From positions 30,849 to 94,848 of the forward strand of contig CANMVX010000015.1 of NCBI GenBank assembly GCA_947501115.1: 64,000 nucleotides of DNA, written 5' to 3'. This document shows, piece after piece, positions 7,194-47,398 of this stretch. Source of the stretch: Haliscomenobacteraceae bacterium. GTDB taxonomy: Bacteria > Bacteroidota > Bacteroidia > Chitinophagales > Saprospiraceae. The notes under the pieces were generated by a model, which saw only the letters and a program-made list of their open reading frames with translations, was not told the DNA's origin and made no database searches. The position numbers and the translations under genes were made by a program. Every line of letters begins with the position of its first letter. The first letter of the stretch is position 1.

Positions 7194-10100
7194 TTAGTTT
7201 ATATAGGTGTTTAAGATTCTTAGCCGTTCTTTATAAATATACTTTGGTGTCATATCCAGCAAAGAATGGTATTTATTTTTAGCATTTTCTCGCAGGGTTG
7301 CTTCATGAGGAAACAACATAACCCATTCAAAAAATCTTTCCGCTTCTTGTTCTTGGGTGCACGGCATATTTTCCATTTGAACGAGGATTTCAGCAGCTTG
7401 GATTTTTTCTCCGTTTGCCCGGGTATATTTTGCTTCCAATAGTCTAACATCGAACTTGAAAGCGTCGTTGGATAATTCGTTTGCAAGGTCGGAAGCCTCT
7501 GTTAATAGCGCTTTGACTTTGTCATATTGCCCGTCAACCAATAAAACAATAGCCAGTTCAAAGAGACTATATCCTAAAACCAGTTTATTATTTATTCTTC
7601 TCGTCAGCGTTATTGCCCGCTCGTAAAAATGGATAGAACGCTCATATTCATTTTTGAAATAATAAACATCGCCCAAGGTATTTAACGCTTTTGCCATTCC
7701 TTTTTGGAAACCCAGCATTTCGCTAATAGTTAACGCTTTTTGTAAGTGATTTATAGCTTCCATAAACTCACCTTTAAGATTAAGTAACTGACCAATAAGG
7801 CATAATACAATAGAGGTGCCTTGTTTGTCGTCTAGTTCCTTGCATAAATCCAGGTCTTTTTCGTAATGAGTCATTGCGCGGTCAAAATCTCCTTCTTTTT
7901 CATAAATCAGGCCAATATTTCCGAGGGCAATAGCTTGTAAATGCTTGTTACCCGTTTGATTTGCCAATTCAATCCCTTCATTAAAATTTATTTTTGCTGC
8001 TTCGATTTCATCTTTATCCACATGAACAAGGCCTTTGTATATATATATGGTTGCTAATCCTAGTTTGTCCTTTTCTTTAATACAATGAATTAATTGTTCA
8101 TTTAAAGTATCCAGGGCCTGTTCATTTTTGCCCATATTCATTTGAGTAAGGGCAATTTTTGCATATACCTGCGTCGTTGGATAATTTTTATCAGTGGATG
8201 ATTTTAGTTTTAAACTTTCATTGAAGTGATAATTTGCCTCATCATATTTGCCCATTCTGAAATAAATATTTCCCAAATAGGCCAATGTTGAAGGTATTAA
8301 GGTAGGGAGATTATTTTTTTCAGAATAAGTTAGGGCTTTTTTTTGAGAAGCCATTGCTGCCGAATAATCCCCTTTAAAAAGTTGCGTCCGACCTATATTA
8401 TTAAATAAAATGGGAATTAATTCGCCGGAATAATCTTCATTTAGTGAGGAATAAGCTTGAAGGTATATTTTTTCTGCTCTTTCCCAATAACCGGTAATCT
8501 CTAAAATGGAGCCTTGTAGAATAAGGGCTTTAAACCTGAAAGGGTGGTGCTGATTTAAATGTATATTTTTCAATAATTTTTCTAAGAAACCAAGGGCATG
8601 TTCATTCAAATAATTATTTTTTGCCTGAACTGCGGCGAGATATAAAAATTCACTGGCTTTTTGGATATGATTTGCCAACTCATAATGGTAGGCCAGTTCT
8701 TGTAATTTTAGTTCAATATGGTCTTTAAAATGTAGTTCAATAGCCTCAGCCACAAGTAAATGAATCTGTTGAAGGGTGGCAGGCAGCTGAATATTATAAG
8801 CCGCTTCTCTGAGTAAAGCGTGTTGAAATAAAAATCGTCTTTTAGTTAATGGTCGCCAAATATTCTCTCTTGTCCCAGCTTTAATAAGGTTTTCTATAAA
8901 ACCGATTTGTGTCTGAAGAATATTTGCATCGGTATGAAGTGCTTTCCACACATTTTCTAAAATAGTCAGGTCAAATTCCCTTCCTATCACGGCAGCAACT
9001 TTGCATAATTCGCGTAGGTCAGGGTTCAGGCTATCAATGCGGGTAGTAAGAAGATTTCCAATTTTTTCAGGGGTTACAATTTCACCTGTATTTAGTGTCC
9101 ATTTGCCGTGATAAGTTGTCAGCCAATCTTTTTCTTTTAGAAATTCTACCATTTGCTCCAGGTAAAACGGATTTCTGTTGGTAGTTACCTCCACATAATC
9201 TAACAGAGCCTCATTGGCCTCATTTCCAAGAATTATTTCGGTAAATTGAGCACAGGTTTTTCTGGTGAAATTTTCAAGATGTATAAAAACGCCAACCTGT
9301 GAGGAGGAATTGGTAGGTAAAAATGTTTTTATTTCCGTTGACGCCTCGGTTCGGGACGTGACTACGAGCATGATTGGAAAGGTGGGTAACTGTTGACAAA
9401 GAGAAACAAGTAACTCTTTGGAGGATGGGTCCAGCCAATGGGAATCTTCAATTTGTAATAAAAGAGGGTGTAACAGAGATTCTGCTAAAATAAGAGATAT
9501 AATGCCATCTTTTGCCATTTGATACCTGCTTTGAGGGGCCAGATCATCCCAATCGGGCGTAGAAAGGCTTAGACCTAACAGAAATCGAAAGGCATTATCG
9601 GAATGGTTTAGTTTTTCTATCAAATCTTTGGCAACCATAGACGAAAAACCTTCTACGCTGGAAATGGCTTGTAACTTGTTGATCAGTGATTTAAATTGTC
9701 TTTGATATTGATAATGCCGATTGGAAAGACCTCTGATGTTTTGACTAAAGTAATGCCTTAAAAGATGAATAAATGGATTGAATGGTTTTTTTATAACGGC
9801 ATCACAAGGACAGAAAAACCAATTTGCCTTGCCATTTCTTATGGTTTCTTCTCTTAAACTGCCAACAAGTCGACTCTTACCTACCCCGGGATCGCCGGAA
9901 ATTATAATAATCTGTCCGGTTTTGGTCGATAAAAGTTTGTTGAATTCAGTTTGGAGGACCTGCATTTCATGATCTCTTCCCACCAGTGGGTACAGAAATT
10001 TTTGAAATCCTTCAGGCTTTTGATTTTTTAAAAGAAATGTTTCTACGGGTTCAAGCATTCCCTTATAACTGATTTCACCTGCTATTTCAAATAGGAAAAA

Positions 10101-11240
10101 GTCTGATTGTGCTATTTGCCTGTCCGTTCTTATTTCTCCCCATTGAGCCTGATTAATCATTCTTGCGGCAAGATTCACAAAATTTCCTACCACACTATAT
10201 TGCTGCATTTCTTTACCGCCAATAAATCCAGTATAGCCTGTACCGCTGGTCACGGCAGCTTTCATTTTTATTCCAAATGGCGCATACATTTCTCTTAAGT
10301 CACGAAAAAGACTGTGAATACAATTTAATGCCCGTTCCAGCTGGTTTTCAAAAGCGAGGGGAACACCGAAAAAGGTAATTAACCAGGGAATTTCCTCACT
10401 GAAATCAAATTCTTTGCAGTAGCCCCCATATTCATTGATATGTTTGACCATCTGACTAAGGAAATCTGAAAAAATTTGTTTGTCCCCAGAGGGAGTAAAG
10501 CCAATGAAAATGGCAATACAGGACCTAAACTCTCCTGAAGGAATGTGTCGGGAAAAAACAGGAGATAGAAAGGGAGAACTATCAGAAACAGGAAGCGATG
10601 TATTTTTTTTAGTCTTTATTAATCCCTCCTTTACTTTGATTTTTTTTATTTCCGACGACTTCCAGGTATAAAAATTTTCTTCAATGGACTCGGAATGAAG
10701 ATCAATGGTTTCAAAGTAATCTCTTATCGTGGAGGTAAAAACGATGCCCTCGTCCTGAAATCTTGCTTTTTGCTGACAAATAGCACTATTTCTAAGAACC
10801 TCCCCACTAAAGTAGTAAGAATAGGGTTCCTTTCCTACAATTCCCCAAGTGAGTATTCCCACGTCTAAACCAATCTTGACACTTACAGGAAGTGACCTGT
10901 TTTTTGCGTTTTTTGTCCTAAAATGAGCGTGAACTTTTTTAACAGCCACGGTGAAAACATATATATCAGTGGATGATTTTGGGAAAATGGCAAAAAATGC
11001 ATCTCCCGCGAAATGAGGAATAAAGCCTCCGTGCTGATAAACAATATCTACCAAAGGAGAGAAAACATCATTTAATAAATCGGAAACCTCCTCCGCCCCT
11101 GCACCCGCATCTTGTAAAAGGGAAGCCGTTAGAGGGGTAAATCCCGTGAGATCAATGTACATGATCCAGGAATCCAAATCTCCATGGAATCTTTCTTTTT
11201 TAAATACGTCAAGTATAAAGTCGGGTACAATAATGCTCAC
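7194..11240 (-). CDS. Tandem class III adenylate cyclase - AAA ATPase - TPR protein (soluble adenylyl cyclase-like)
   Basis: 1348 residues, no signal peptide or membrane segment. Cyclase domain C1 (about 20-180) keeps both metal-binding aspartates, Asp30 ('IDLTGFT') and Asp80 ('FAGDAFFAIF'), but its Asn/Arg motif is degenerate. C2 (about 235-405) lacks the first aspartate ('AIFIGFTP') but keeps Lys343, Asn356 and Arg360 ('GNFVNLAAR'). The two halves could therefore make one complete active site. An AAA_16 ATPase follows, with Walker A 'GDPGVGKS' at 449-456 and an 'LLLQIEDSHWLD' Walker B. From about 860 to the end there are at least eight TPRs, such as 'GNIYFRMGKYDEANYHFNESL'. This order matches mammalian ADCY10 and bacterial relatives. 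Predicted product is cAMP, but cGMP or a non-catalytic role is possible. The start is backed by a -7 element just upstream. Confidence 0.9.
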   Translation of the reverse strand: MSIIVPDFILDVFKKERFHGDLDSWIMYIDLTGFTPLTASLLQDAGAGAEEVSDLLNDVFSPLVDIVYQHGGFIPHFAGDAFFAIFPKSSTDIYVFTVAVKKVHAHFRTKNAKNRSLPVSVKIGLDVGILTWGIVGKEPYSYYFSGEVLRNSAICQQKARFQDEGIVFTSTIRDYFETIDLHSESIEENFYTWKSSEIKKIKVKEGLIKTKKNTSLPVSDSSPFLSPVFSRHIPSGEFRSCIAIFIGFTPSGDKQIFSDFLSQMVKHINEYGGYCKEFDFSEEIPWLITFFGVPLAFENQLERALNCIHSLFRDLREMYAPFGIKMKAAVTSGTGYTGFIGGKEMQQYSVVGNFVNLAARMINQAQWGEIRTDRQIAQSDFFLFEIAGEISYKGMLEPVETFLLKNQKPEGFQKFLYPLVGRDHEMQVLQTEFNKLLSTKTGQIIIISGDPGVGKSRLVGSLREETIRNGKANWFFCPCDAVIKKPFNPFIHLLRHYFSQNIRGLSNRHYQYQRQFKSLINKLQAISSVEGFSSMVAKDLIEKLNHSDNAFRFLLGLSLSTPDWDDLAPQSRYQMAKDGIISLILAESLLHPLLLQIEDSHWLDPSSKELLVSLCQQLPTFPIMLVVTSRTEASTEIKTFLPTNSSSQVGVFIHLENFTRKTCAQFTEIILGNEANEALLDYVEVTTNRNPFYLEQMVEFLKEKDWLTTYHGKWTLNTGEIVTPEKIGNLLTTRIDSLNPDLRELCKVAAVIGREFDLTILENVWKALHTDANILQTQIGFIENLIKAGTRENIWRPLTKRRFLFQHALLREAAYNIQLPATLQQIHLLVAEAIELHFKDHIELKLQELAYHYELANHIQKASEFLYLAAVQAKNNYLNEHALGFLEKLLKNIHLNQHHPFRFKALILQGSILEITGYWERAEKIYLQAYSSLNEDYSGELIPILFNNIGRTQLFKGDYSAAMASQKKALTYSEKNNLPTLIPSTLAYLGNIYFRMGKYDEANYHFNESLKLKSSTDKNYPTTQVYAKIALTQMNMGKNEQALDTLNEQLIHCIKEKDKLGLATIYIYKGLVHVDKDEIEAAKINFNEGIELANQTGNKHLQAIALGNIGLIYEKEGDFDRAMTHYEKDLDLCKELDDKQGTSIVLCLIGQLLNLKGEFMEAINHLQKALTISEMLGFQKGMAKALNTLGDVYYFKNEYERSIHFYERAITLTRRINNKLVLGYSLFELAIVLLVDGQYDKVKALLTEASDLANELSNDAFKFDVRLLEAKYTRANGEKIQAAEILVQMENMPCTQEQEAERFFEWVMLFPHEATLRENAKNKYHSLLDMTPKYIYKERLRILNTYIN

Positions 11241-11395: not shown

Positions 11396-13840
11396 ATGCT
11401 TCGACTTCATTGTTATTTACTTTTATTTATTTCCACTTTTTTAATAGCTCAAAACAACGACCCAATTGCCAAAAAAATAATGGAAGCTAAGCGGGTTGAA
11501 GGAAAAATGGTAATGGATGGAAAACTAGATGAAAACGACTGGCAATCGGCTGTCGCTGCCGATAGTTTCGTTACTTTTCAGCCCGTTCCTGGTTTGAAAG
11601 CGTCAGAAGATGGACAAATACGAGTTTTATACGATAATGAAGGATTTTATATAGGCGCATTTCTCGCAGACAATGATCCTGAAACTATTCCAAAACAGTT
11701 ATCGCAGCGAGATGAAATTCAAAATACAGATTGGTTTGCAGTCATTTTAGATACTTATAAGGATGGAAACAATGGTCTTGGTTTTATCGTATCAGCAAGT
11801 GGTGTTCAGCTTGATGTAAAATATTCCGTTTACGGCGAAGATAGCGGTTGGGATGCTGTTTGGGAAAGTGCAGTATCTTTCACTGACAAAGGTTGGATTG
11901 TTGAAATGAAAATTCCCTATTCGGCCATCAGGTTTCCCAAACAGGAAAATCAGGAATGGCATATTAACTTCCTAAGACTTTATCAAAGGAAACAGGAAAA
12001 ATCATCCTGGAGTACAATTAATCCGTTAATTTCCGGTTTCCTCAATCAGTCAGGTATTTTAACTGGTATAAAAAATATTTCTTCGCCAATACGTTTGCAG
12101 GCTACGCCATTTTTTGCGGTTTACGGACAACAATTTACAGACAAGGCGGCAGCTCAAAAAAATGTCTATGGTTCTTCATTTAATGGGGGTATGGACATTA
12201 AATACGGTATTAATGATGCTTTTACCTTAGATATGACGTTGATTCCTGATTTTGGGGAGGCTCAATCAGATAATCAAGTGCTCAATCTGACCCCTTTTGA
12301 AGTTAGATTTGATGAAAATAGACAGTTTTTTACAGAAGGAACAGAGTTATTCAACAAAGGGAATATTTTTTACTCCCGTCGAATTGGGGGTACTCCTTTA
12401 AATTACGGCAAAGCTTATCAGGGTTTGTTGCCAGGTGAGAAAGTGATTAATAATCCTCAAAGAGGGAAAATCGTGAATGCAACAAAAATTTCAGGCCGAA
12501 CCCCTTCTGGCTTGGGACTGGGATTGTTTAATGCTACGTCCTTGAAATCTTATGCAACTATTCAAAGGGAAAATGGGGAGGAAAGGAATGTCGAAACGGA
12601 TCCATTGACAAATTATAATATTTTTGTGTTAGACCAGAATTTAAAAAATAATTCATACATAAGTTTTATTAATACCACCGTTTATCGGTTTGGTGAAGAC
12701 TATGATGCGAATGTCTCTGCCATGGAATTTGACCTGAGGACAAAAGATAATGCCTATTCATTTAGTGGAAATGGCGCGCTTTCTCAAAAGTATTTCATAG
12801 GAAAAGCGGATTTTGGGCATACCTACGCTTTTAAATTAGCAAAAAATGGAGGAGCATTTACCTTTGATATTGCTTATAACGAAGAGAGCAATACTTACGA
12901 CCCGAAAGACCTTGGATTTTTGTTTAATAATAATGAGAGAAGCCTTCAAGGGGAGTTGAACTATAAAGTATTGAAGCCCTGGAGTATATTTAACAGGTAT
13001 GGCGCTGGCGCTGAATGGCGATATATGAGATTATATAAACCTTTTGTTTTCAATGATGCAGGTGGCGATGTATATGTTTGGGGACAAACGAAGAAATTCT
13101 GGGAAATGAATGCTTGGGTTTCTATGGAACCTTGGGCAACCTTTGATTATTTTGAGCCTAGAACCGCGGGCCGTTTCTATCGTTATCCAACCAATCGGGG
13201 GGTGGGTATGTTTCTTTCCACGGATAGTCGTAAGGAGGTTTTATTGACAACTAATTTAAGGTTTAGGTATTTTGATGAAGAAGATAGAAACACTCTTAGA
13301 TTTTCTATTGGACCTCGCTGGAGAGTGAGTGACCAACTCAATTTTTCATTTAACACTGCGGTTAATTTCTTTTCAAATGATGTGGGATTCGTAAATAAGG
13401 TATCGAAAAATGCGGGTGAGAAGGATATCATTTTTGGGGTAAGAGACATTTCCACGGTGGAAAACTCTTTGTTTGCAGCTTATAATTTTACACCAACCAT
13501 GTCTCTGACTTTCCGAATGAGGCATTATTGGTCCAAAGTAGCTTATGATAAGTTTGCCATGCTAAATCTAAATGGAACCTTAGCTCCAACAGATTATAAA
13601 GGTAATCATAATGCCAATTTCAATGCCTTTAATATTGATATGATTTACAGATGGCGGTTTGCACCTGGTAGCGATCTTTATGTTGTTTGGAAAAATAGCA
13701 TTTTGGAAAATCAACAAAGGACGGATCTTGATTATTGGTCAAATCTCGATGGATTATTTGAAAACCCACAAAGAAATATTATTTCACTGAAAATGATTTA
13801 TTTCTTAGATTATAATAGTATTTTCAGCAATAATTCATAA
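11396..13840 (+). CDS. DUF5916 outer-membrane protein with CBM9-like N-terminal domain
   Basis: 814 residues with an N-terminal signal peptide ('LLLFISTFLIAQ'). Residues ~30-225 form a carbohydrate-binding family 9-like domain: 'VMDGKLDENDWQSA', 'GFYIGAFLADN' and 'WIVEMKIPYSAIRFPK'. The rest is DUF5916, rich in alternating aromatic strands and typical of an outer-membrane beta-barrel: 'FDENRQFFTEGTELF', 'FYSRRIGG' and a strand-like C-terminus. The family is common in Bacteroidota and uncharacterised; ligand binding or uptake at the outer membrane is inferred. A second family member lies at 47399. The Rieske oxygenase gene begins five bases after the stop, so the two are likely co-transcribed. 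Confidence 0.87.
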   Translation: MLRLHCYLLLFISTFLIAQNNDPIAKKIMEAKRVEGKMVMDGKLDENDWQSAVAADSFVTFQPVPGLKASEDGQIRVLYDNEGFYIGAFLADNDPETIPKQLSQRDEIQNTDWFAVILDTYKDGNNGLGFIVSASGVQLDVKYSVYGEDSGWDAVWESAVSFTDKGWIVEMKIPYSAIRFPKQENQEWHINFLRLYQRKQEKSSWSTINPLISGFLNQSGILTGIKNISSPIRLQATPFFAVYGQQFTDKAAAQKNVYGSSFNGGMDIKYGINDAFTLDMTLIPDFGEAQSDNQVLNLTPFEVRFDENRQFFTEGTELFNKGNIFYSRRIGGTPLNYGKAYQGLLPGEKVINNPQRGKIVNATKISGRTPSGLGLGLFNATSLKSYATIQRENGEERNVETDPLTNYNIFVLDQNLKNNSYISFINTTVYRFGEDYDANVSAMEFDLRTKDNAYSFSGNGALSQKYFIGKADFGHTYAFKLAKNGGAFTFDIAYNEESNTYDPKDLGFLFNNNERSLQGELNYKVLKPWSIFNRYGAGAEWRYMRLYKPFVFNDAGGDVYVWGQTKKFWEMNAWVSMEPWATFDYFEPRTAGRFYRYPTNRGVGMFLSTDSRKEVLLTTNLRFRYFDEEDRNTLRFSIGPRWRVSDQLNFSFNTAVNFFSNDVGFVNKVSKNAGEKDIIFGVRDISTVENSLFAAYNFTPTMSLTFRMRHYWSKVAYDKFAMLNLNGTLAPTDYKGNHNANFNAFNIDMIYRWRFAPGSDLYVVWKNSILENQQRTDLDYWSNLDGLFENPQRNIISLKMIYFLDYNSIFSNNS

Positions 13841-13845
13841 GTGGC

Positions 13846-14940
13846 ATGGAGATTTTTCATATTGATGAGGATATTAGAAAGTCAGATACACTGCCTTCAT
13901 CTTTTTATAGAGAAAGGGAGTGGTTTGAACGCTCTATTTCTGAAATTTGGGAAAAATGTTGGATTTTTATAGGTAATAATACCGATCAGGCTCCGGTTGG
14001 CACTTTAACGCCTATGGTCTTATTACCGGATGTTTTAAATGAACCTGTTGTCCTTTCCACAGATTCAGATGGGGAGGTATATTGTTTATCGAACGTTTGT
14101 ACGCATAGGGGTAAATTGGTAGTTTCTTCCTCCTGTTCCGGACAGCGGATACTTCGTTGTGGTTATCATGGACGGTGTTTCAGACTAAATGGGACATTTA
14201 AAAGTATGCCTGAATTTGACCAGACAGAAAATTTCCCAACGGAAAGGGATCATTTGAAACAATTGCCGCTGGCTACTTTTTTTCCTTTGTACTTCACCTC
14301 CATTAATCCCCTTGCTTCATTTGCCACTTTCATTCAACCCATGTTGGATAGAGTTTCATTTTTACCTTTACATACCCTCACCTTTAATCCTGATGCTTCC
14401 AAAGATTTCGATGTAAGGGCGCATTGGGCGTTATATGTTGACAATTATCTGGAAGGTTTTCATATTCCGTTTGTACATCCGGCGTTGAATCAAGCTATAG
14501 AATTTGAAAAATATGAATATCACTTATTTGAATGGGGTAATCTACAAATAGGTGTTGCGGCTGACGATGAACCATATTTTAATACGCCAAAAGGTCATGT
14601 GGACGAGGGCAAGAAAATATATGCCTATTATTTTTGGATTTTCCCCAATTTGATGTTCAATTTTTATCCCTGGGGTTTATCCTTAAATGTTGTAGAACCC
14701 AAAGGACATAAAATGACGGTGGTGAAATTCCGCTCATATTATTTTGAGGGAACCTCATTCGATCGAGAAAAGAACCAATTAGATGTCACCGAATTAGAAG
14801 ACGAAGAGGTGGTCGAATCTGTTCAAATGGGAATGCAAGGCCGATATTATAATAGGGGAAGGTATTCTGTTAACATGGAAATTAATGTCCATCACTTCCA
14901 TCGTATCATTTCAAACCTATTGAATAAGCAAAAAGACTAA
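13846..14940 (+). CDS. Rieske non-heme iron oxygenase, alpha subunit
   Basis: 364 residues. The Rieske [2Fe-2S] cluster ligands are Cys85/His87 ('CTHRG') and Cys105/His108 ('CGYHGRCF'). The catalytic domain carries the mononuclear iron site 'DNYLEGFHIPFVHP', with His206 and His211 and a bridging Asp200 near. Enzymes of this family oxygenate aromatic rings or quaternary amines such as choline or carnitine, using electrons from a separate reductase. The sequence does not settle the substrate, and no reductase or ferredoxin gene is adjacent. Coupling to the preceding DUF5916 gene could link uptake with oxidation, which is speculative. Confidence 0.9.
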   Translation: MEIFHIDEDIRKSDTLPSSFYREREWFERSISEIWEKCWIFIGNNTDQAPVGTLTPMVLLPDVLNEPVVLSTDSDGEVYCLSNVCTHRGKLVVSSSCSGQRILRCGYHGRCFRLNGTFKSMPEFDQTENFPTERDHLKQLPLATFFPLYFTSINPLASFATFIQPMLDRVSFLPLHTLTFNPDASKDFDVRAHWALYVDNYLEGFHIPFVHPALNQAIEFEKYEYHLFEWGNLQIGVAADDEPYFNTPKGHVDEGKKIYAYYFWIFPNLMFNFYPWGLSLNVVEPKGHKMTVVKFRSYYFEGTSFDREKNQLDVTELEDEEVVESVQMGMQGRYYNRGRYSVNMEINVHHFHRIISNLLNKQKD

Positions 14941-15046
14941 AAATATAGTATTTTGTCTATAAGTTTCATTAATCTGCTGTTAATTAAAGTACATTTTAAT
15001 TAACTTGCACTTTTATTTTTAGCTATTGAAAAAATATAAGGCTCAG

Positions 15047-18000
15047 ATGCAAAGAATTCTATTTATCTCTTTTATTCTACTTTGTTTATCGGTTGTTTTT
15101 CTTCAGGCTCAAACCTCATTAGGGGGGAAAGTAATCGATGAAGAGTCAAAAGAGCCCATCTCTTTCGGCACTATTGCCTTATTTAAAAATGGGGTTTTAG
15201 TTACTGGAACGGAGACAGATGTAGAGGGATATTTTAATTTCCCCGACATGGATCCAGGTCTTTATGACGTTGAAGCCAGTTACTTGGGCTATACCTCCAG
15301 AAGGATTACGGGAGTAAAAGTTTTGGCTGGAAAGTCAACTAAGTTAGATATTCAACTTGGTTCTGATGGAGGCGTTGTGTTACAGGAAATTACCATAGTT
15401 GAATATAAGGTGCCATTGATTGAGCAAGATAATACTACGTCTGGTTCGGTTATTACGAGCGATCAAATACGGTCATTACCTACGAGAAATATTAATGCTT
15501 TAGCTGCTACTACAGCAGGTTTAGCCGCTGCCGATGAGGGGAAAGCGATAACTATCAGGGGTTCTCGTTCCGATGCTACAAACTACTATATCGACGGTAT
15601 CAGAATTCAGGGTAACCTCATTCCAGAATCAGAAATAGATCAGCTTCAAGTAATTACGGGGGGGATTGAAGCGCAATATGGTGATGTGACCGGAGGTATT
15701 ATCTCCATCACAACAAAGGGTCCGTCAAATAAATTTAGTGGGGGAGTAGAAGTTGAATCATCTAAATATCTTGATCCATACAGCAACAGTTTAATAGGTG
15801 TAAACCTGAGTGGACCCATTTTAAAAAATAAGAAGGGTCAATCTATTTTGGGTTACCGTTTCTCGGGAAGATATACCCATCAGTACGAGGATAATCCACC
15901 AGCTACCTCAATTTATAGGGTTAAAGAGGACAAATTAGCAGAGTTAGAGGCTAATCCAGTAACCGCCCTTGGGTCAAGTTTCATCATAAGCGCTGATAAC
16001 CTGCTTGCCGATGATGTTGATATTTTAAAAGCCAGAAATAACGAAACGAATGAGAGGCTTGATCTAACTGGTAAAATTGATGCGCGATTAGGTGAATCTA
16101 TTGATATGACGCTTACCGGAGCACTTACCGATGCTAAAAATCAATTTACGCCAGGTGGTTGGGGCGTTCTGAACAGTAAAAATAATCCGTTCAGTTTAGG
16201 AAGAACGTATAGAGCAAATTTTAGATTAAGACAAAGATTTGGTGCAAATGGAGGTGCCGGTAATGAAAAAGGGGCTATTCAAAATGCTTCATATACCTTG
16301 CAGGGAGGTTATGAAAAATCGACAGGGGAACAAGCTGACCAACGACATGGGTTTAATTATTTTGATTATGGGTATGTGGGAAAATTTGATTTGGAATGGG
16401 TACCTACCTTTGCGCTGGCCTTTGATCCTGCTTCTCAAGGTGTAGCCATGCAACATACAGATTACAGACAGGTACTTAGAAAATATACCCCGGGAGAGCA
16501 AAATCCTGTTCTTTCAAATTATAATAATGCGCTCGACCTTAAACAGGGTGAGGGAATTAATCCACAAGTTGGAAAATATATATTATCTAATTTTTTCAAT
16601 AGTCAAAATTTACTTTCCTTGGGCAACTTTATAGCACCCAACGGATTTATATCCCCTGTTTATAACAACTCATGGGGTTTTCATACCAATGTTGGCTGGG
16701 TATATAATACGGCGGGAAGGTCCACAAATGATGTATATTCATTTAATGCCAGAACTAATTTTGACTGGATTCCAGGTAGTTCGAAAAATGGCAGACACAA
16801 TATACAAATAGGGTTTATTTATGAGGAGCGTTTAAATAGAAGTTATACTGTTATTCCGAGAGGACTTTGGGATATCGCCAGACAGCAGGCAAATAATCAT
16901 ATTCAAGGTATTGCCCCCAATGCAGATACCATAGGTTATATTGATTTACCCAATTTCCCGAAAACACCTCTTCGCGCTTTATCTATTGTAAATAGTGAGG
17001 ACAACAAATTTTATAAATCTATCAGAGAAGAATTAGGTTTACCTCTTACTACTTTTGTAAATGTAGATGGGTTGGATCCCGATCAATTGAGGTTAGATAT
17101 GTTTTCGGCAAAGGAATTAAATGATCAAAACGCAATAAGTTATTTTGGCCACGACTATTTAGGTCGCCCTTTCGATGGTACGTTTGAAGATTTTTTTTCT
17201 ACGGTTGACGAAAATGGAGTAAGAACTTTTCCCGTAGCTCCGAACAGACCTATTTATTCTGCAGCCTATATCCAGGATAAATTTACATTCAGAGATATTA
17301 TCTTCAGGTTAGGCGTACGTATGGACAGATATGACGCTAATACCAGGGTATTAAAAGACCCATATTCGTTGTATGACATTATGGAGGCCTCAGAATTTCA
17401 TAACCTTCCGGAAACAAAATCTGAAAAACCAGGTAGCATTGGCGATGATTACAAAGTTTATCTAAATGACAGTGGAACGGACGTGTTGGCTTATCGCGAT
17501 GGTGACTTATGGTATAGGTCAAATGGTAATCCTGTTAATAGTCCGATAGATATCTTTTCCGGAGGATTAGTATTTCCAAAATACAAGGATCCCCGGGCAC
17601 AAAATATAAATAACTACATCAAAGATAAGGCATTTGACCCATCAGTTTCTTTCAAGGATTATGAAGTTCAGGTAAATTTTATGCCTCGACTAGCCTTTTC
17701 TTTTCCTATTTCTGATGACGCTAACTTCTTTGCACACTACGATGTACTTATTCAGCGACCGCCTTCAAATACTTTGGCCACAGCGTTAGATTATTTTTAC
17801 TTCACTGATTTCCCATCGGTTATTCGAAATAACCCAGATCTAAGGCCGGAGAGAACAATAGATTATGAAGTAGGATTTCAACAAAAGTTATCAGCAACTT
17901 CAAAGTTAAAAATCGCGGCATATTATAAGGAATTGAGAGATATGATTCAGCAAAGAACCTATTTCCCTGTGCCCATAGTTAACCAATATACGACTTACGG

Positions 18001-18706
18001 AAATTTGGATTTTGGCACAGTTAAAGGATTTTCTTTTGAATATGAAATGCGCAGAACAGGGAATCTTTCTTTAGTGACCAATTATACCCTTCAGTTTGCT
18101 GATGGTACAGGTTCTGATGCTAATTCACAGAGAGGTTTAACGAGCAGAGGCAATCTCCGGACCCTGTTTCCTTTGAATTTTGATGAAAGACATCGCGTAA
18201 ATATGAATTTAGATTACCGGTTCGGGGCAGGAAAATTTTATAATGGACCTAATCTTTTTGGTTCTGATATCCTTGCCAATGCAGGTCTGAGTTTGCAGGC
18301 CATTGCTGTTTCTGGTCGTCCTTATACGGCAACAATCACTCCTCTTGAATTAGGAGGGGCTCAAACAGCTGGTTCAATTAATGGATCTCGCAAACCATGG
18401 AACTATACCATTAATTTACGAGTGGATAAAGTGGTTCAAGTAAGTAAAGGTTTAAGCATGAATATTTATTGTAGGGTGTCAAATCTGCTCAATCAACAAA
18501 ATATTTTAAATGTTTATTCTTCCACAGGATCACCAAAGGATGACGGATTTCTTGCTTCCTCGAATGGTCAGGACAAGCTACTAAACATAGTAAATTCAAA
18601 TAGGGTGGTTGATGCTTATTTGGCGTCTTACCAGTGGGCATTGTTAAATCCTGGGTTATTTAGCTTACCGAGAAGGATTTTTGCCGGTGTGATTATGGAT
18701 TTTTAA
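15047..18706 (+). CDS. TonB-dependent receptor with carboxypeptidase-regulatory-like domain
   Basis: The ATG at 15047 gives a clean signal peptide ('MQRILFISFILL...FLQAQ'); the TTG at 15026 would add seven residues. After the signal comes a carboxypeptidase-regulatory-like beta-sandwich ('GGKVIDEESKEPISFGTIAL'), then a plug domain with 'ITIRGSRSDATNYYIDGIR' and 'GGIEAQYGDVTGGIISI', then a large 22-strand-type barrel to the end ('RRIFAGVIMDF'). Such receptors import large ligands with TonB/ExbBD energy, and none of those energy genes is here. No SusD partner follows. Instead a 1324-residue secreted protein and a PorV-like protein come next with 9-20 base gaps, so the usual SusCD glycan-uptake reading does not apply directly. 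Confidence 0.93.
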   Translation: MQRILFISFILLCLSVVFLQAQTSLGGKVIDEESKEPISFGTIALFKNGVLVTGTETDVEGYFNFPDMDPGLYDVEASYLGYTSRRITGVKVLAGKSTKLDIQLGSDGGVVLQEITIVEYKVPLIEQDNTTSGSVITSDQIRSLPTRNINALAATTAGLAAADEGKAITIRGSRSDATNYYIDGIRIQGNLIPESEIDQLQVITGGIEAQYGDVTGGIISITTKGPSNKFSGGVEVESSKYLDPYSNSLIGVNLSGPILKNKKGQSILGYRFSGRYTHQYEDNPPATSIYRVKEDKLAELEANPVTALGSSFIISADNLLADDVDILKARNNETNERLDLTGKIDARLGESIDMTLTGALTDAKNQFTPGGWGVLNSKNNPFSLGRTYRANFRLRQRFGANGGAGNEKGAIQNASYTLQGGYEKSTGEQADQRHGFNYFDYGYVGKFDLEWVPTFALAFDPASQGVAMQHTDYRQVLRKYTPGEQNPVLSNYNNALDLKQGEGINPQVGKYILSNFFNSQNLLSLGNFIAPNGFISPVYNNSWGFHTNVGWVYNTAGRSTNDVYSFNARTNFDWIPGSSKNGRHNIQIGFIYEERLNRSYTVIPRGLWDIARQQANNHIQGIAPNADTIGYIDLPNFPKTPLRALSIVNSEDNKFYKSIREELGLPLTTFVNVDGLDPDQLRLDMFSAKELNDQNAISYFGHDYLGRPFDGTFEDFFSTVDENGVRTFPVAPNRPIYSAAYIQDKFTFRDIIFRLGVRMDRYDANTRVLKDPYSLYDIMEASEFHNLPETKSEKPGSIGDDYKVYLNDSGTDVLAYRDGDLWYRSNGNPVNSPIDIFSGGLVFPKYKDPRAQNINNYIKDKAFDPSVSFKDYEVQVNFMPRLAFSFPISDDANFFAHYDVLIQRPPSNTLATALDYFYFTDFPSVIRNNPDLRPERTIDYEVGFQQKLSATSKLKIAAYYKELRDMIQQRTYFPVPIVNQYTTYGNLDFGTVKGFSFEYEMRRTGNLSLVTNYTLQFADGTGSDANSQRGLTSRGNLRTLFPLNFDERHRVNMNLDYRFGAGKFYNGPNLFGSDILANAGLSLQAIAVSGRPYTATITPLELGGAQTAGSINGSRKPWNYTINLRVDKVVQVSKGLSMNIYCRVSNLLNQQNILNVYSSTGSPKDDGFLASSNGQDKLLNIVNSNRVVDAYLASYQWALLNPGLFSLPRRIFAGVIMDF

Positions 18707-18715
18707 ATTGAAATT

Positions 18716-21700
18716 ATGACTAGGATGGTATATAAAAGGTTAATTAGCATCGTTTCTTTTAGCATTTTAATGGGGGTTATTTTATCTCCTATTGTAATGA
18801 CTGCCAGAAATAATCCTTTGTTAAAAGAAAGAAGAGGCAATACGACAGTAAAACTGCGATTTGCTGAAAATTGCAATAATGCAGTAGCTCAGATTGATCA
18901 GGCAATAAATAATGTAAGAGCACGATTAACTACTGGAGGGGATGTTTGGTGGGACAGTAATGACGGCCGATACATTGTACCGAAAGTACCAGCTGGTCTT
19001 CCTGAGGTTTCTTCTATTTTTGCAGGAGCAGTTTGGTTGGGTGGCGTTGACCCCGCTGGTAATTTAAAAGTGGCCGCTCAAACGTATGGTCGTAGTTCAG
19101 GCGATTTTGACTTCTGGCCTGGTCCACTTAATCCTGAAACAGGAAAAACTAATCAAGCGATATGTTCCCGTTGGGACCGTTTCTTCACTGTTAAAGGAGA
19201 AAATATCAGAGAGCATATCAGAAAATTTCAACTGGCGGAGAAAAGTGGCGTAGCTTATAATCCCGATGATATTCCCAGAGATATAAAAGGTTGGCCAGCT
19301 CGTGGGAATGAATTCTTCTTCGATATTCATAATTTTGAATTACCTAATACCTCGCAAGGCCTTGCTGCATTTTGGGATCAGGATGGAGATGGCTTATATA
19401 ACCCGGACAGAGGTGATTTTCCAGTCATTGAAATAAGAGGTTGTGTATCAAAACCGCAATTTCCGGACGAAATGATTTTCTGGGTTTATAATGATGCAGG
19501 TAATATCCATTCAGAATCTAGAGGTGACCCTATTCAGATGGAAGTACAGGTGCAAGCCTTTTCTTATGCTACCAATGACGAAATAAATGATATGACTTTT
19601 CAACGGTATAAACTCATTAACCGTGCCGTTGAAAGTATTGATTCCATGTTCTTTGCTATGTGGGTAGATGCTGACTTAGGCTGTTTTACAGATGATTATG
19701 TCGGAAGTGATGTTTCCAGAAGTCTTGGTTATATGTATAATGAAGATGCTTTAGATGGTCAAACGGGTTGTGCATGCCCTCAAGGGGTCAATACCTATTG
19801 CGATGAAGTGCCTATTTTGGGTGTGGATTATTTTAGAGGGCCCTTAGACGAAAATGGGGAAGAAATTGGTATGTCTTCTTTTACTTATTATAATAATGGA
19901 GGCGTTGGAAGTCCGGCACCTGGTACCACAGACCCTGCTACCGCTCAAGAGTACTTTAACTATTTATCTGGTTCCTGGCGTGACGGTAGTCCTTTCACTT
20001 TCGGTGATGATGCCTATCAAGATGGTGCTAAGGTAAAATACGCTTTTTCAGATGCACCAAATAATTCAAGAGGCTGGTCAATGTGTACTTCAAATCTTCC
20101 TTTTGGTGATCGTCGTACCATACAAGCCTCAGGCCCTTTTCGTTTAGATCCGGGTGCTGTAAATGAGCTAATCATCGGAGTAGTTTGGGTAGCAGATCAA
20201 ACATATCCCTGCCCGGATATCTCAAAATTACTCGAAGCGGATGATATCGCTCAGGCATTATTTGATAATTGTTTTGAATTAACGGATGGACCTGATGCCC
20301 CGGATATTGATTTTATAGAGCTGGATAGAGAGATTATTGCTGTATTTACAAATGATAGCATTACTTCTAATAATGCTTTTGAAGGTTATGCTCAGCGTGG
20401 TTTGCAAATTCCAGCTGGTGCAAAGGATAGTTTATATACCTTTGAAGGGTACAAATTGTATCAATTATCCAATTCTTCAGTAACGATTGCAGATTTAGAA
20501 AATCCTGATAAATCACGATTGATTTATCAAGTAGATTTAAAAAACAACATAAATAGAATTTTCAATTGGAAAACCATTGATAATCCGACAGGAGAGGAGT
20601 ACTATGTTCCTGAGTTAAAAGTTGAAGGTGGGAATAATGGTATTCAACATACTTTTAAGATTAAGGAAGATCAATTTTCAGAAGGCGATCGCAGATTAAT
20701 TAATCATAAGAAATATTATTTTGTCGCGGTTGCTTACGCACATAATAATTATAGAGTTTTTGACCCCAAAGCAGTACTGGGGCAAAGAAAGCCTTATTTG
20801 GAGGGGAGAAGGAATATTGGAGACGGTAGAAATCCATTTTATACGGTATTACCTCATCCAACCACAGATAAAATATTAAATGCCAGTTATGGTGAAGGAA
20901 CGGTTATTACCCGTATTTCAGGAGCTGGAACAGGAGCTAATTTTCTTGATATTTCTGATGCGACCAGGTCTGCGATATTGGGTACTTCTTTCAATGGACA
21001 GATAACTTATCTTCCTGGAAGAGCGCCCATCCAAGTGAAAATTTTTAATCCTTTGGAAGTAAAGGACGGACAGTTTGAACTAAAGTTTAAAGACAATAAT
21101 GCTACTAACGGGATTTTAGAATCTCCTGTTACCTGGGAGTTAAGAAATCTTAGAGATCCGAATAGTCCGGTTATCAGATCAGAAAGACCTATTGAGCAGT
21201 TGAACGAACAGATCATCAGAGCATTTGGTTTCTCCATTATAATAGGTCAGGTTTCAGAACCGGGGAGTTTAAAAGATGCCAAAAATGGGACTATTGGTAT
21301 TGAAGTTACTTACAAAGATAAAAATGGTGCGCAATGGCTGGGATTTATCAATGATGGATTTAGTGCAGGTCCCACGAACTTTGACGCAACCGTTTTTGAT
21401 TATATTTCAACGGGTGACGGGCAAGTTGATGCGGTATTAGATCCAACCCAGGCTTTTTCAAAAATGGGTGCCGGACAATTTACTCCCTATTTCCTTGCCG
21501 ATTGGAGAGTAAAAGGGGAGAGAGATCCTGCCTATATTTCTCCCGCTATTTCTGATAATAGCGCTAGTTCCATTCTAAGAACACGAATGAAATTAGCCGA
21601 TTTGAATAATGTGGATATTGTTTTCACAAAAGATAAGAGTCTTTGGAGTAAGTGTGTTATCATTGAGTCTGCTAACAGATTTTATCGTACCCAAGGGTTT

Positions 21701-22690
21701 AATACAGAGGGAAATCGCAGGCACTTTGATTTAAGGGCCAGGCCTGGGGTAACAAAAGATGATACAAATAGTGATGGTTTACCGGACCCAAATACAGCTG
21801 ATTTAACAGAGGGATTTGGATGGTTCCCAGGCTATGCCATAGATGTGGAAACAGGTAGAAGGCTAAATATTTTCTTTGGGGAAAATTCTGTTTATAATGG
21901 TACCGTATTGGAAAACTATAAGTTGGGTGCCGATATGATGTTTAACCCTGATAACTTAGTCCGTTTAGCGGGGGTAAGTAACGGAAATCTTGGATTCTAT
22001 CCTGTTGGTGGACAGCACTTTGTATATGTTACGAAGCAAACGTATGACGAATGCAAGGCAATTAGAAATTCATTGAGAAATGCAGCGCCTGTCGCTAAGA
22101 TTCTTGCCTTGCAGGAGATTACCTGGTCTGGTCTGATTTTTAATCAATCTACAACCCCGTTTCTTTCTTACAAAGATGGTTTGATTCCAAATGACGCTGT
22201 TGTAAAAATTCGTGTTAATAATCCTTACTCGTTGGCAGGAAATGAAAATAACGGCCACCCTGTTTATCGCTTTCAATTTGATAAAAAGGAAGCAGAAAAG
22301 CGGGATGCAAGTAATTACAATGCTGCTTTAGATGCAATAAACGTAGTTCCTAATCCATATTACGGTTTCTCCGATTATGAGGTTTCCCAATTTACCACGA
22401 CCATTAAGTTTACTAATCTGCCCGCCAATTGTACAGTTACCATTTATTCTTTGGATGGTAAATTTATCAGGCAATATAAACGGGATGAAGTGGGAGCGGT
22501 TCCACGAGGCAACAACCGAGCCATTACGAATAATCAAATAACGCCTGATTTAGAGTGGGATTTAAGAAATAACCGGGGAATTCCAGTTGCAAGTGGTGTT
22601 TATTTGATGAATATTGACGCGGGCGAATTGGGATCTAAAACGATAAAGTGGTTTGGTGTAAACAGAAAATTTGATCCTTCTGGATTGTAA
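18716..22690 (+). CDS. Large secreted surface protein with FlgD-like C-terminal domain
   Basis: 1324 residues with an N-terminal signal peptide ending near 'VMTARNN'; the Met at residue 4 is an alternative start. Aspartate-rich loops typical of calcium binding occur near residue 220 ('DQDGDGLYNPDRGD') and near 1015 ('DTNSDGLPDPN'). A Cys-rich loop 'TGCACPQGVNTYCDE' lies near 350. The last ~110 residues have 'NVVPNPYYGFSDYE', 'TVTIYSLDGKFIRQY' and 'GIPVASGVYLMNI', a FlgD-Ig-like or T9SS-A-like terminal domain, extended by 'FGVNRKFDPSGL'. I do not recognise an enzymatic domain. The gene starts ten bases after the TonB receptor and is followed by a PorV-like gene, so it is probably the exported partner of that module. 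Confidence 0.8.
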   Translation: MTRMVYKRLISIVSFSILMGVILSPIVMTARNNPLLKERRGNTTVKLRFAENCNNAVAQIDQAINNVRARLTTGGDVWWDSNDGRYIVPKVPAGLPEVSSIFAGAVWLGGVDPAGNLKVAAQTYGRSSGDFDFWPGPLNPETGKTNQAICSRWDRFFTVKGENIREHIRKFQLAEKSGVAYNPDDIPRDIKGWPARGNEFFFDIHNFELPNTSQGLAAFWDQDGDGLYNPDRGDFPVIEIRGCVSKPQFPDEMIFWVYNDAGNIHSESRGDPIQMEVQVQAFSYATNDEINDMTFQRYKLINRAVESIDSMFFAMWVDADLGCFTDDYVGSDVSRSLGYMYNEDALDGQTGCACPQGVNTYCDEVPILGVDYFRGPLDENGEEIGMSSFTYYNNGGVGSPAPGTTDPATAQEYFNYLSGSWRDGSPFTFGDDAYQDGAKVKYAFSDAPNNSRGWSMCTSNLPFGDRRTIQASGPFRLDPGAVNELIIGVVWVADQTYPCPDISKLLEADDIAQALFDNCFELTDGPDAPDIDFIELDREIIAVFTNDSITSNNAFEGYAQRGLQIPAGAKDSLYTFEGYKLYQLSNSSVTIADLENPDKSRLIYQVDLKNNINRIFNWKTIDNPTGEEYYVPELKVEGGNNGIQHTFKIKEDQFSEGDRRLINHKKYYFVAVAYAHNNYRVFDPKAVLGQRKPYLEGRRNIGDGRNPFYTVLPHPTTDKILNASYGEGTVITRISGAGTGANFLDISDATRSAILGTSFNGQITYLPGRAPIQVKIFNPLEVKDGQFELKFKDNNATNGILESPVTWELRNLRDPNSPVIRSERPIEQLNEQIIRAFGFSIIIGQVSEPGSLKDAKNGTIGIEVTYKDKNGAQWLGFINDGFSAGPTNFDATVFDYISTGDGQVDAVLDPTQAFSKMGAGQFTPYFLADWRVKGERDPAYISPAISDNSASSILRTRMKLADLNNVDIVFTKDKSLWSKCVIIESANRFYRTQGFNTEGNRRHFDLRARPGVTKDDTNSDGLPDPNTADLTEGFGWFPGYAIDVETGRRLNIFFGENSVYNGTVLENYKLGADMMFNPDNLVRLAGVSNGNLGFYPVGGQHFVYVTKQTYDECKAIRNSLRNAAPVAKILALQEITWSGLIFNQSTTPFLSYKDGLIPNDAVVKIRVNNPYSLAGNENNGHPVYRFQFDKKEAEKRDASNYNAALDAINVVPNPYYGFSDYEVSQFTTTIKFTNLPANCTVTIYSLDGKFIRQYKRDEVGAVPRGNNRAITNNQITPDLEWDLRNNRGIPVASGVYLMNIDAGELGSKTIKWFGVNRKFDPSGL

Positions 22691-22710
22691 ACAATGAATA
22701 ATTTAATGAA

Positions 22711-23757
22711 ATGAGGATTAAGGTTTTTTTTATTATTGGTAGTTTAATTTTTCTTTCCCACCCTTTTTTAAAGGCTGGGAATCCCGACAGACAGGGTGAG
22801 GCTGGAGCTTATGAGCTACTATTGAATCCCTGGGCAAGAAGTTCTGGTTTATTTCATATCAATACTGCTTCAGTCAGAGGGGTTGAAGCAATGAGAATTA
22901 ATATTGCTGGTTTACCGCGTATAAATAGTCTGGAAATCAATCTTTCCGGAGCTAATTACTTACAAGGTACAGGCATTCGAATGAATGCTTTCGGAATTTC
23001 CCGAAAGTTGAAAAATGGCGCTGCGTTAGGTCTTAGTCTAACATCGCTAAATTTTGGTGAAAATAAAGTAACTACAGAAGACCAACCTGAGGGAACAGGG
23101 GCAAATTTTTCTCCTAATTTCTTTAATATAGCCTTGGGCTATGCATATACCTTTGAAAATAAGGTGTCTGTTGGTATTTTGATGAGAGGTATTTCTGAAT
23201 CTCTTTCTAATGTAAGCGCCTTTGGCTTGGCAATTGATGCGGGGGTTCAGTATGTAACAGGTGATAAAGAAGAATTCAAATTCGGGATTAGTCTGAGTAA
23301 TGTTGGTTCAAGGATGGTTTTTAATGGAGAAGGTCTCTCTTTTCAGGGAAACACCCCGAATAAAGCTGGATATCAACTTACTTTTGATCAACGCGCAGCA
23401 GGTTTCGAGTTACCGTCTATGTTAAATATTGGATTGTCCTACGATATACTTCTGGGCGAACCTCACAGGATTAGTTTGATTGGGAACTTTACTTCTAATT
23501 CTTTCAGCAGAGACCAGATAGGGGCGGGTATTGAGTATGCTCTTTGGGATTCCTTTATGTTAAGAGGTGCTTATAAATATGATCTTGGTGCTTCTACTCT
23601 GGAAGAAAGGCCTGTAAATACTGGTTTGAGTGCCGGAGGAAGTATTGATTTTCCATTATCTAAAGGGTCTAAAAATAAGATTGCTTTGGACTATGCCTAT
23701 CAGGCAACCCGAGTTTGGACAGGTACGCATAATATTTCCCTTCGATTCAATTTCTAG
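22711..23757 (+). CDS. PorV/PorQ family outer-membrane protein
   Basis: 348 residues, signal peptide 'MRIKVFFIIGSLIFLSHPFLKAG', then 'QGEAGAYELLLNPWARSSG', the N-terminal pattern of the PorV/PorQ (UPF0164-like) barrel family. Alternating hydrophobic strands continue to an outer-membrane-style terminal strand ending in 'ISLRFNF'. In T9SS, PorV shuttles cargo from the translocon to the attachment complex, and PorQ works with PorZ. This copy follows a TonB receptor and a large secreted protein in the same transcription unit. It is therefore more likely a dedicated accessory barrel than the housekeeping PorV, by inference from context. Confidence 0.82.
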   Translation: MRIKVFFIIGSLIFLSHPFLKAGNPDRQGEAGAYELLLNPWARSSGLFHINTASVRGVEAMRINIAGLPRINSLEINLSGANYLQGTGIRMNAFGISRKLKNGAALGLSLTSLNFGENKVTTEDQPEGTGANFSPNFFNIALGYAYTFENKVSVGILMRGISESLSNVSAFGLAIDAGVQYVTGDKEEFKFGISLSNVGSRMVFNGEGLSFQGNTPNKAGYQLTFDQRAAGFELPSMLNIGLSYDILLGEPHRISLIGNFTSNSFSRDQIGAGIEYALWDSFMLRGAYKYDLGASTLEERPVNTGLSAGGSIDFPLSKGSKNKIALDYAYQATRVWTGTHNISLRFNF

Positions 23758-23931: not shown

Positions 23932-24405
23932 ATGTCTGGTATCAATTACCTGACCCGAGAGGGTTTTGAACGACTAAATAGTGAATTAGAAGATATGAAA
24001 TCGCGAGGTAGATCGGAAGCTGCTAAAGCTATTGCCGAAGCTCGTGAGAAAGGAGATTTGTCTGAAAATGCAGAATATGACGCGGCAAAAGAGGCGCAGG
24101 GAATGCTGGAACTAAGAATTAACGACCTAGAAAAACAACTTGCTAATGCCAGAGTAATGGAAATCAGCGATGTAGATATTTCTAAAGTTACCGTTCTTTC
24201 TAAGGTAACCATTAAAAATAAGGCTAATAATGCCACAATAACCTATCAAATAGTTTCAGAATCAGAATCTGATCTTAAAGCTAAACGTATTTCGATTAGC
24301 TCGCCCATGGGTAAAGGCTTATTGGGAAAGAAAATTGGGGATGTAGCTCACGTGGAGACACCTAATGGTAAATTAGAATTTGTTATTGAAAATATTTCAA
24401 TCTAG
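23932..24405 (+). CDS. greA: Transcription elongation factor GreA
   Basis: 157 residues, the normal length. The N-terminal coiled coil starts 'NYLTREGFERLNSELEDM' and carries the acidic tip motif 'EAREKGDLSENAEYDAAKE', whose residues reach the RNA polymerase active site through the secondary channel and stimulate cleavage of backtracked transcripts. The C-terminal FKBP-like domain ends 'SSPMGKGLLGKKIGDVAHVETPNGKLEF'. A HIT-family gene starts seven bases after the stop, so the two form a probable operon. The leader contains a terminator-like hairpin that could feed back on greA expression. Confidence 0.96.
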   Translation: MSGINYLTREGFERLNSELEDMKSRGRSEAAKAIAEAREKGDLSENAEYDAAKEAQGMLELRINDLEKQLANARVMEISDVDISKVTVLSKVTIKNKANNATITYQIVSESESDLKAKRISISSPMGKGLLGKKIGDVAHVETPNGKLEFVIENISI

Positions 24406-24412
24406 CCAAGGT

Positions 24413-24814
24413 ATGCCAAGTATTTTTTCCCGTATTATAAATGGAGAAATTCCTGCATGGAAAGTAGCAGAATCAGAGCATTTTCTGGCGTTTCTTGACG
24501 TGAATCCGCTTGCGAAAGGACATACCTTAATCGTTCCAAAAGTAGAGATAGATTATTTTTTTGATCTATCAGACGAGGAAATATCAGGTATCATGTTATT
24601 TTCAAAAAAGGTCGCTTCTGCATTGCTCAGCACGCTGCCATGCCTTAGAATAGGAATGAGTGTCATAGGTTTGGAAGTACCCCATGCACATGTACATTTA
24701 GTTCCACTAAACAGTATGGGGGATATTAATTTTAGTAACTCAAGGCCAAATTTTTCGGCAGAAGAAATGGAAGCAATAGCTGCTTCCATTCGTTCCGCTT
24801 ACGATAAATTATAA
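24413..24814 (+). CDS. HIT family nucleotide hydrolase/transferase
   Basis: 133 residues from the ATG at 24413. The ORF track's TTG at 24380 would overlap greA and add a non-conserved leader, so it is rejected. 'SIFSRIINGEIPAWKV' is the usual HIT N-terminus and 'HAHVHLVP' near residue 95 is the histidine triad with the catalytic histidine. The group (Hint/HinT-like) hydrolyses purine phosphoramidates such as AMP-lysine. The position after greA suggests co-transcription; a greA-HIT pair recurs in Bacteroidota as I recall. The stop lies three bases from that of the convergent SDR gene. Confidence 0.9.
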   Translation: MPSIFSRIINGEIPAWKVAESEHFLAFLDVNPLAKGHTLIVPKVEIDYFFDLSDEEISGIMLFSKKVASALLSTLPCLRIGMSVIGLEVPHAHVHLVPLNSMGDINFSNSRPNFSAEEMEAIAASIRSAYDKL

Positions 24815-47345: not shown

Positions 47346-47370
47346 TATTCATTTTACGAAGGTGATTACC

Positions 47371-47378
47371 TACTTTTG
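47371..47378 (+). promoter_or_regulatory. Bacteroidota -7 element (TACTTTTG) for the second DUF5916 gene
   Basis: TACTTTTG matches TAnnTTTG and lies 21 bases before the ATG at 47399, implying a leader of roughly 15 bases. No TTG is seen at -33. Confidence 0.45.
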
Positions 47379-47398
47379 TATGCACTTAATCATTACTT

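Follow-up and report, generated by a model that had tools for sequence, protein, structure and literature searches.

Organisation of the Three-Gene Locus

The window, which is the whole stretch of 64,000 nucleotides analysed here, belongs to a genome assembled in 175 contigs with a completeness of 96.7%. Three open reading frames follow one another on its + strand with gaps of 9 and 20 bases. The first, TBDT (15047..18706), encodes a TonB-dependent receptor of 1219 aa with an N-terminal CarboxypepD_reg domain, a plug, and a barrel. The second, GIANT (18716..22690), encodes a secreted, mostly beta protein of 1324 aa, which belongs to no Pfam family; its C-terminal domain (CTD, 22310..22687, + strand) carries the conserved tail KWFGVNRKFDPSGL and is similar to the CTDs of PorZ and PorU. 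The third, PORV (22711..23757), encodes an outer-membrane barrel of the PorV/PorQ family, 348 aa in length. The greA and HIT genes located downstream on the same strand (23932..24814) are conserved landmarks outside the module. The scan of the genes surrounding the unit revealed no SusD; thus, the ORF positions and the domain scan agree with the preliminary description of a tight three-gene unit lacking SusD.

Several other genes of the window can be noted. A DUF5916/CBM9 protein and a Rieske ring-hydroxylating oxygenase are encoded directly upstream on the same strand (11396-14940) and are not among the conserved neighbours found. The protein encoded at 7194-11240 is 1348 aa long and combines nucleotide-cyclase, AAA, and TPR regions; at 44190-49621, the gene of a large Fib_succ_major protein precedes that of a second DUF5916 protein.

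The TonB-Dependent Receptor

The start of TBDT is the ATG at 15047, with an in-frame TTG upstream at 15026. The protein matches the Pfam families CarboxypepD_reg (6e-15), Plug (1.9e-11), and OMP_b-brl_3 (2.4e-10). The latter two exceed the Pfam cut-offs, which places the protein among TonB-dependent receptors by scored domains. A candidate TonB box, EITIVEYKVP (15386..15415, + strand), lies between the CarboxypepD_reg domain and the plug; it was recognised by this position and by the family consensus LDxVxVxEYKVP. No close paralogue of TBDT was found in the host genome. Import would be the default function of a receptor that has both a plug and a segment resembling a TonB box.

The Secreted Protein and Its C-Terminal Domain

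The body of GIANT has no counterpart among the sequence entries of Pfam, NCBIfam, and the PDB, and a PDB sequence search with GIANT and PORV returned no match. The most widely conserved core corresponds approximately to residues 235-693. Loops of the D-x-D-x-D-G type, spotted by eye, are partly conserved across the family, and their calcium role is putative. The FlgD-like label given earlier to the C-terminus corresponds to a weak PF13860 match in only 3 of the 19 relatives. The N-terminus of the protein (MTRMVYKRLISIVSFSILMGVILSPIVMTARNNPLL) contains no cysteine, so there is no lipobox characteristic of surface lipoproteins.

The body (residues 50-1198, alignment of 64 rows) was modelled with confidence (pLDDT 91.2, pTM 0.79) and is mostly beta. 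Its fold matches are partial and weak; the top ones are enzymes of the GH94/GH116 type with a TM-score of at most 0.16 by query length, which is too weak for use. A SusD-like fold was considered for GIANT and rejected: SusD is absent from the listed PDB fold matches of the body model, and the SusD Pfam domain has no match in the protein.

The last ~120 residues show weak matches to the C-terminal domains of PorZ, PorU, and TIGR04183. The type A CTD model TIGR04183 gives 14.8 bits on the GIANT of the window, under its cut-off of 23, and is matched at E<=0.01 in 8 of the 19 relatives. The PorZ model is matched by 17 of the 19 GIANTs, and in the window protein the match falls on the CTD part. In the model built from the relative in locus L055, the CTD forms a beta domain of high pLDDT; the GIANT CTD aligns with the CTDs of PorZ and PorU. 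The extreme C-terminus is strongly conserved within the family.

GIANT is present as a single copy in the host genome, while many other genomes contain extra full-length GIANTs. In the two-copy genomes examined, one copy belongs to the triad; the second either stands alone or lies directly behind PORV, without a TBDT or PORV of its own. Such second copies occupy L202:11627-15718, L065:15158-19075, L068:15406-19431, and L115:15322-19701, and solitary ones were seen in L174, L176, L179, L181, L183, and L193. No TBDT or PORV adjoins the solitary copies, and for most of them the nearest relative is the triad-linked GIANT encoded in the same genome; therefore, GIANT was duplicated repeatedly, while TBDT and PORV were not. 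These duplications look lineage-specific and repeated. A co-duplication of the whole three-gene unit was tested for and not found. In addition, short proteins (open frames of ~570-600 aa) comprising GIANT residues ~50-520 only are encoded at G130:C33:47680-49065, G191:C166:46254-47588, and elsewhere.

PORV and Other PorV-Family Barrels of the Host Genome

Four PorV-family barrels are encoded by the host genome, and PORV is the fourth and distinct one. Its score against the PorV/PorQ subfamily model NF033709 is 117.9 bits, above the cut-off of 90, and all 28 relatives match this model at E<=0.001. Its scores against the equivalog models of PorV (NF033710, 46.1 bits) and PorQ (NF033711, 63.1 bits) lie under the cut-offs of 250 and 220, respectively, and there is no match at E<=0.001 to the PorV2 equivalog NF052325 (cut-off of 325 bits). 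The PorV/PorQ-type identity proposed initially is thus upheld at the level of the subfamily.

The true PorV of the genome (G000:C1, 462.9 bits) is located beside the PorU sortase, while PorQ (G000:C16, 298 bits) and PorV2 (G000:C21, 405.7 bits) are encoded elsewhere, and all three exceed their cut-offs. A separate housekeeping porV, for which a search had been suggested, therefore exists, and the possibility that PORV is the only porV in the genome is rejected. No T9SS cargo or sortase gene was recognised near the host porV2 gene (L007:9460-10563). Like PorV2, PORV is a PorV-family barrel outside PorV and PorQ; unlike it, PORV gives no match to NF052325 at E<=0.001, and the true PorV2 lies at another site. 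PORV is probably a dedicated holder of GIANT.

Predicted Docking of the C-Terminal Domain on PORV

The CTD and PORV of the window are in different frames, and a fusion was taken instead from relatives in which both are in one frame. It consisted of the GIANT CTD (120 residues), the intergenic stretch as a linker (49 residues), and the barrel (325 residues); stop codons were read as G, and 45 rows were aligned with L055 first. For this read-through fusion AlphaFold2 gave a pLDDT of 88.2 and a pTM of 0.84; the two domains were predicted with confidence, and the poor regions fell mainly in the linker. The pTM expected for an undocked CTD is ~0.62-0.66, whereas 0.84 is expected if the CTD is placed to ~3 Angstrom; therefore, docking is implied. 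The docking of the GIANT CTD on PORV is supported by this prediction, which is read from the pTM of one fusion, in which the partners are tethered to each other. The best PDB matches of the barrel in the fused model are PorV in 8gl6 (the translocon-RemA-CTD complex) and PorV in 6h3i, with FadL and BamG behind them.

In the T9SS attachment complex, the FadL-type barrels PorV and PorQ retain PorU and PorZ, respectively, through CTDs that stay uncleaved (PMC5562754, PMC10202324). The module resembles the PorQ:PorZ and PorV:PorU pairs (PMC5562754) in that PORV has the PorV fold and the GIANT CTD matches those of PorZ and PorU. It differs from them in that PORV falls under both equivalog cut-offs, the GIANT body is unrelated in sequence to PorZ and PorU, and the module is tied to a TonB-dependent receptor, apart from the genome's own PorV, PorU, and PorQ.

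Conservation of the Gene Order

The searches covered Bacteroidota. Relatives of GIANT were found in 158 of the 199 genomes of the order, some of them as weak matches only. The 74 named loci with GIANT relatives come mostly from Saprospiraceae, with Flavobacteriales, Cryomorphaceae, and Bacteroidales (rumen, horse faeces) also among the labels; the near-identical loci (98-99%) are mostly from metagenome genomes labelled Saprospiraceae or Bacteroidota. Wherever the order is visible in the named loci, it is TBDT-GIANT-PORV, the exceptions being second GIANT copies and interrupted frames. Fifty-one (51) of these loci are fully intact, with median gaps of 39 and 77 bases.

A phylum-wide draw revealed GIANT relatives in 118 of 396 genomes, with matches at model positions 235-693 (the core) and 1190-1333 (the CTD). 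In 19 distant loci, nearly all outside the class of the window, TBDT is located upstream in all 19 and PORV downstream in 18, one locus being cut by the contig end. In total, 89 complete triads were collected, distant lineages of the phylum included. The conservation of the three-gene order, proposed earlier as a check, thus extends well beyond close relatives, and a chance adjacency of the three genes is rejected.

A TPR protein with multihaem cytochrome CXXCH motifs is encoded closely behind PORV in some distant lineages (L161:7840-10089, L164:4146-6407, L165:3992-6256, and L168:4871-6961). In L155, L170, and L172, a GWxTD-domain protein occupies this place instead.

The pairwise distance matrices of the 89 triads correlate at 0.96 (TBDT-GIANT), 0.95 (GIANT-PORV), and 0.93 (TBDT-PORV), which is as expected if the three genes were inherited together and vertically. 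The far conservation and the separate PorV, PorQ, and PorV2 bear out the idea of a dedicated module, and the modelled docking of the CTD on PORV fits a self-contained complex.

In a rival reading, PORV would act only as a private shuttle: GIANT would be taken from the translocon, cleaved by PorU, and then released or attached, with TBDT merely co-expressed. Cargoes with type B CTDs have their own adjacent cognate PorP/SprF barrels, which are needed for secretion (PMC12618676, PMC9143113), and such shuttles provide a precedent. The module is similar to them in that the GIANT cargo gene is followed at once by its own barrel gene, and unlike them in having a type A-like CTD and a barrel from the PorV/PorQ family. 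A second precedent may be the iron-responsive gene group of Prevotella intermedia, which contains a PorV/PorQ protein, an S8 peptidase, and a BACON protein and is perhaps another case of a cargo-linked PorV paralogue (PMC10434189). However, TBDT is linked to GIANT as tightly as PORV is, the strong conservation of the extreme C-terminus would be odd for a discarded signal, and the CTD is like the retained CTDs of PorZ and PorU. We consider the shuttle-only reading unlikely.

Co-Occurrence and Chromosomal Site

One set of 295 genomes of the class was scored for the presence of GIANT, PORV, TBDT, and SusD, and cross-counts were obtained by comparing the genome lists. GIANT was found in 245 of them, TBDT in 236, and PORV in 233. 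GIANT and PORV are both present in 232 genomes, GIANT without PORV in 13, PORV without GIANT in 1, and neither in 49; for GIANT and TBDT, these numbers are 234, 11, 2, and 48. Fisher's p is ~1e-42 for each pair, the genomes being related and the counts thus not phylogenetically independent. Many incomplete or fragmented genomes are among the exceptions. Nearly every positive genome of the class contains one TBDT and one PORV.

The chromosomal site is also stable. Of 87 triad loci, 54 have greA downstream of the triad in the same orientation and 49 have a HIT-family gene; serA, ruvC, and carB are frequent neighbours. In the genomes without a triad, greA and HIT are mostly still paired (18 of 19, with a HIT homologue in the retrieved stretch), and none of the triad genes occurs there. 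This fits a clean loss of the triad from an old site; an insertion is formally conceivable. A conserved chromosomal neighbourhood might by itself keep three genes together as ancestral synteny devoid of any functional link. However, the flanking genes vary while the three genes stay together, and their absence is all-or-none, with greA-HIT left behind. Mere co-location is disfavoured by these data and seems very improbable.

It is unusual for a substrate-specific importer to be nearly single-copy and to keep a fixed site next to housekeeping genes. Because of these two features, a housekeeping role in the envelope is a serious rival to import: the three proteins would form a complex that assembles, modifies, or organises surface components, drawing on TonB energy or on TBDT as a scaffold, and would import no nutrient. 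The single TBDT and PORV in nearly all positive genomes, the vertical inheritance, the phylum-wide spread, and the stable greA-HIT site with serA, ruvC, and carB nearby agree with such a role. The BAM complex of Bacteroidota, which has a FadL-type barrel and large surface subunits, offers a parallel (PMC12578637, PMC12611786). On the other hand, several large families are devoid of GIANT (50 of the 295 genomes), so the machine is not essential in general, and TBDT retains its plug and TonB-box-like segment. This role is a real possibility, though we hold it to be rather less likely than the complex proposed below.

Relation to SusC-SusD Systems

SusCD pairs occur in many copies per genome and are substrate-specific. 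The module is similar to them in that a TonB-dependent receptor adjoins a dedicated large surface protein. Unlike SusC-SusD, it has no SusD fold, SusD Pfam match, or lipoprotein signal, it contains an extra barrel, and it is found in about one copy per genome.

Its distribution is also inverse to that of SusD. Of the 295 genomes surveyed in the class, 101 contain SusD (PF07980, E<=1e-10): 57 of the 245 with GIANT versus 44 of the 50 without it, a correlation only, with strong lineage effects. Among 43 hand-picked genomes, the median number of SusD genes is 0 in those with the triad and 17 in those without it. The genome of the window itself contains the triad together with 24 SusD matches; therefore, the two systems are not mutually exclusive.

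Proposed Complex and Its Significance

The favoured interpretation, which we regard as somewhat better than an even guess, is that the three proteins form one complex in the outer membrane. There, PORV would hold GIANT after its export by the T9SS, and GIANT would serve TBDT as an extracellular subunit. GIANT would cross the outer membrane via the type IX secretion system by means of a non-canonical type A-like CTD. It would be neither released nor anchored by the sortase; its uncleaved CTD and conserved tail would remain seated on PORV, which would hold it after the manner of PorV-PorU and PorQ-PorZ. The body of ~1150 residues would lie over or beside TBDT as an extracellular subunit for ligand capture, as a lid, or for processing. 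Thereby, GIANT would fill the place of SusD by another route, with the T9SS and a barrel holder in place of a surface lipoprotein.

Given that the CTD is PorZ-like in 17 of 19 GIANTs and the tail is conserved, GIANT is probably exported by the T9SS and would be retained on PORV. Gene order, co-occurrence, and analogy suggest that GIANT works as the outer subunit of TBDT, with which it would be in contact; transport of a ligand, and its inward direction, are presumed.

More tentatively, and with somewhat less than even confidence, the unit may represent an outer-membrane transporter of a new class, in which the lid or receptor subunit of a TonB-dependent receptor is delivered by the T9SS and seated on its own PorV-type barrel. 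Such a transporter would go back to the ancestor of the phylum and would have mostly disappeared from the much-studied SusCD-rich lineages. The identity of the well-studied families without the unit is presumptive.

No description of the three-gene unit was found in the full-text literature searched, the scope of which did not extend to subscription papers and preprints; within it, the earlier statement that no function had been described for this combination stands. The pieces are of known kinds, and their combination is undescribed in that literature. The unit thus seems to be a surface complex of a type not described before, present mostly in SusD-less genomes. It occurs in most of the sampled genomes of the class, and its absence from families rich in SusD may be the reason that it was overlooked.

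If the proposed complex is real, a cargo of the T9SS can serve permanently as a subunit of a TonB-dependent complex, with a holder of its own. According to the current view, all type A CTDs share a common PorV (PMC12618676), and the module would be an exception to this view. It would also be a further case for the idea, put forward in a review, that cognate PorV-like barrels shield such CTDs from cleavage by the sortase (PMC10202324). Finally, it makes testable how SusD-less lineages equip their receptors.
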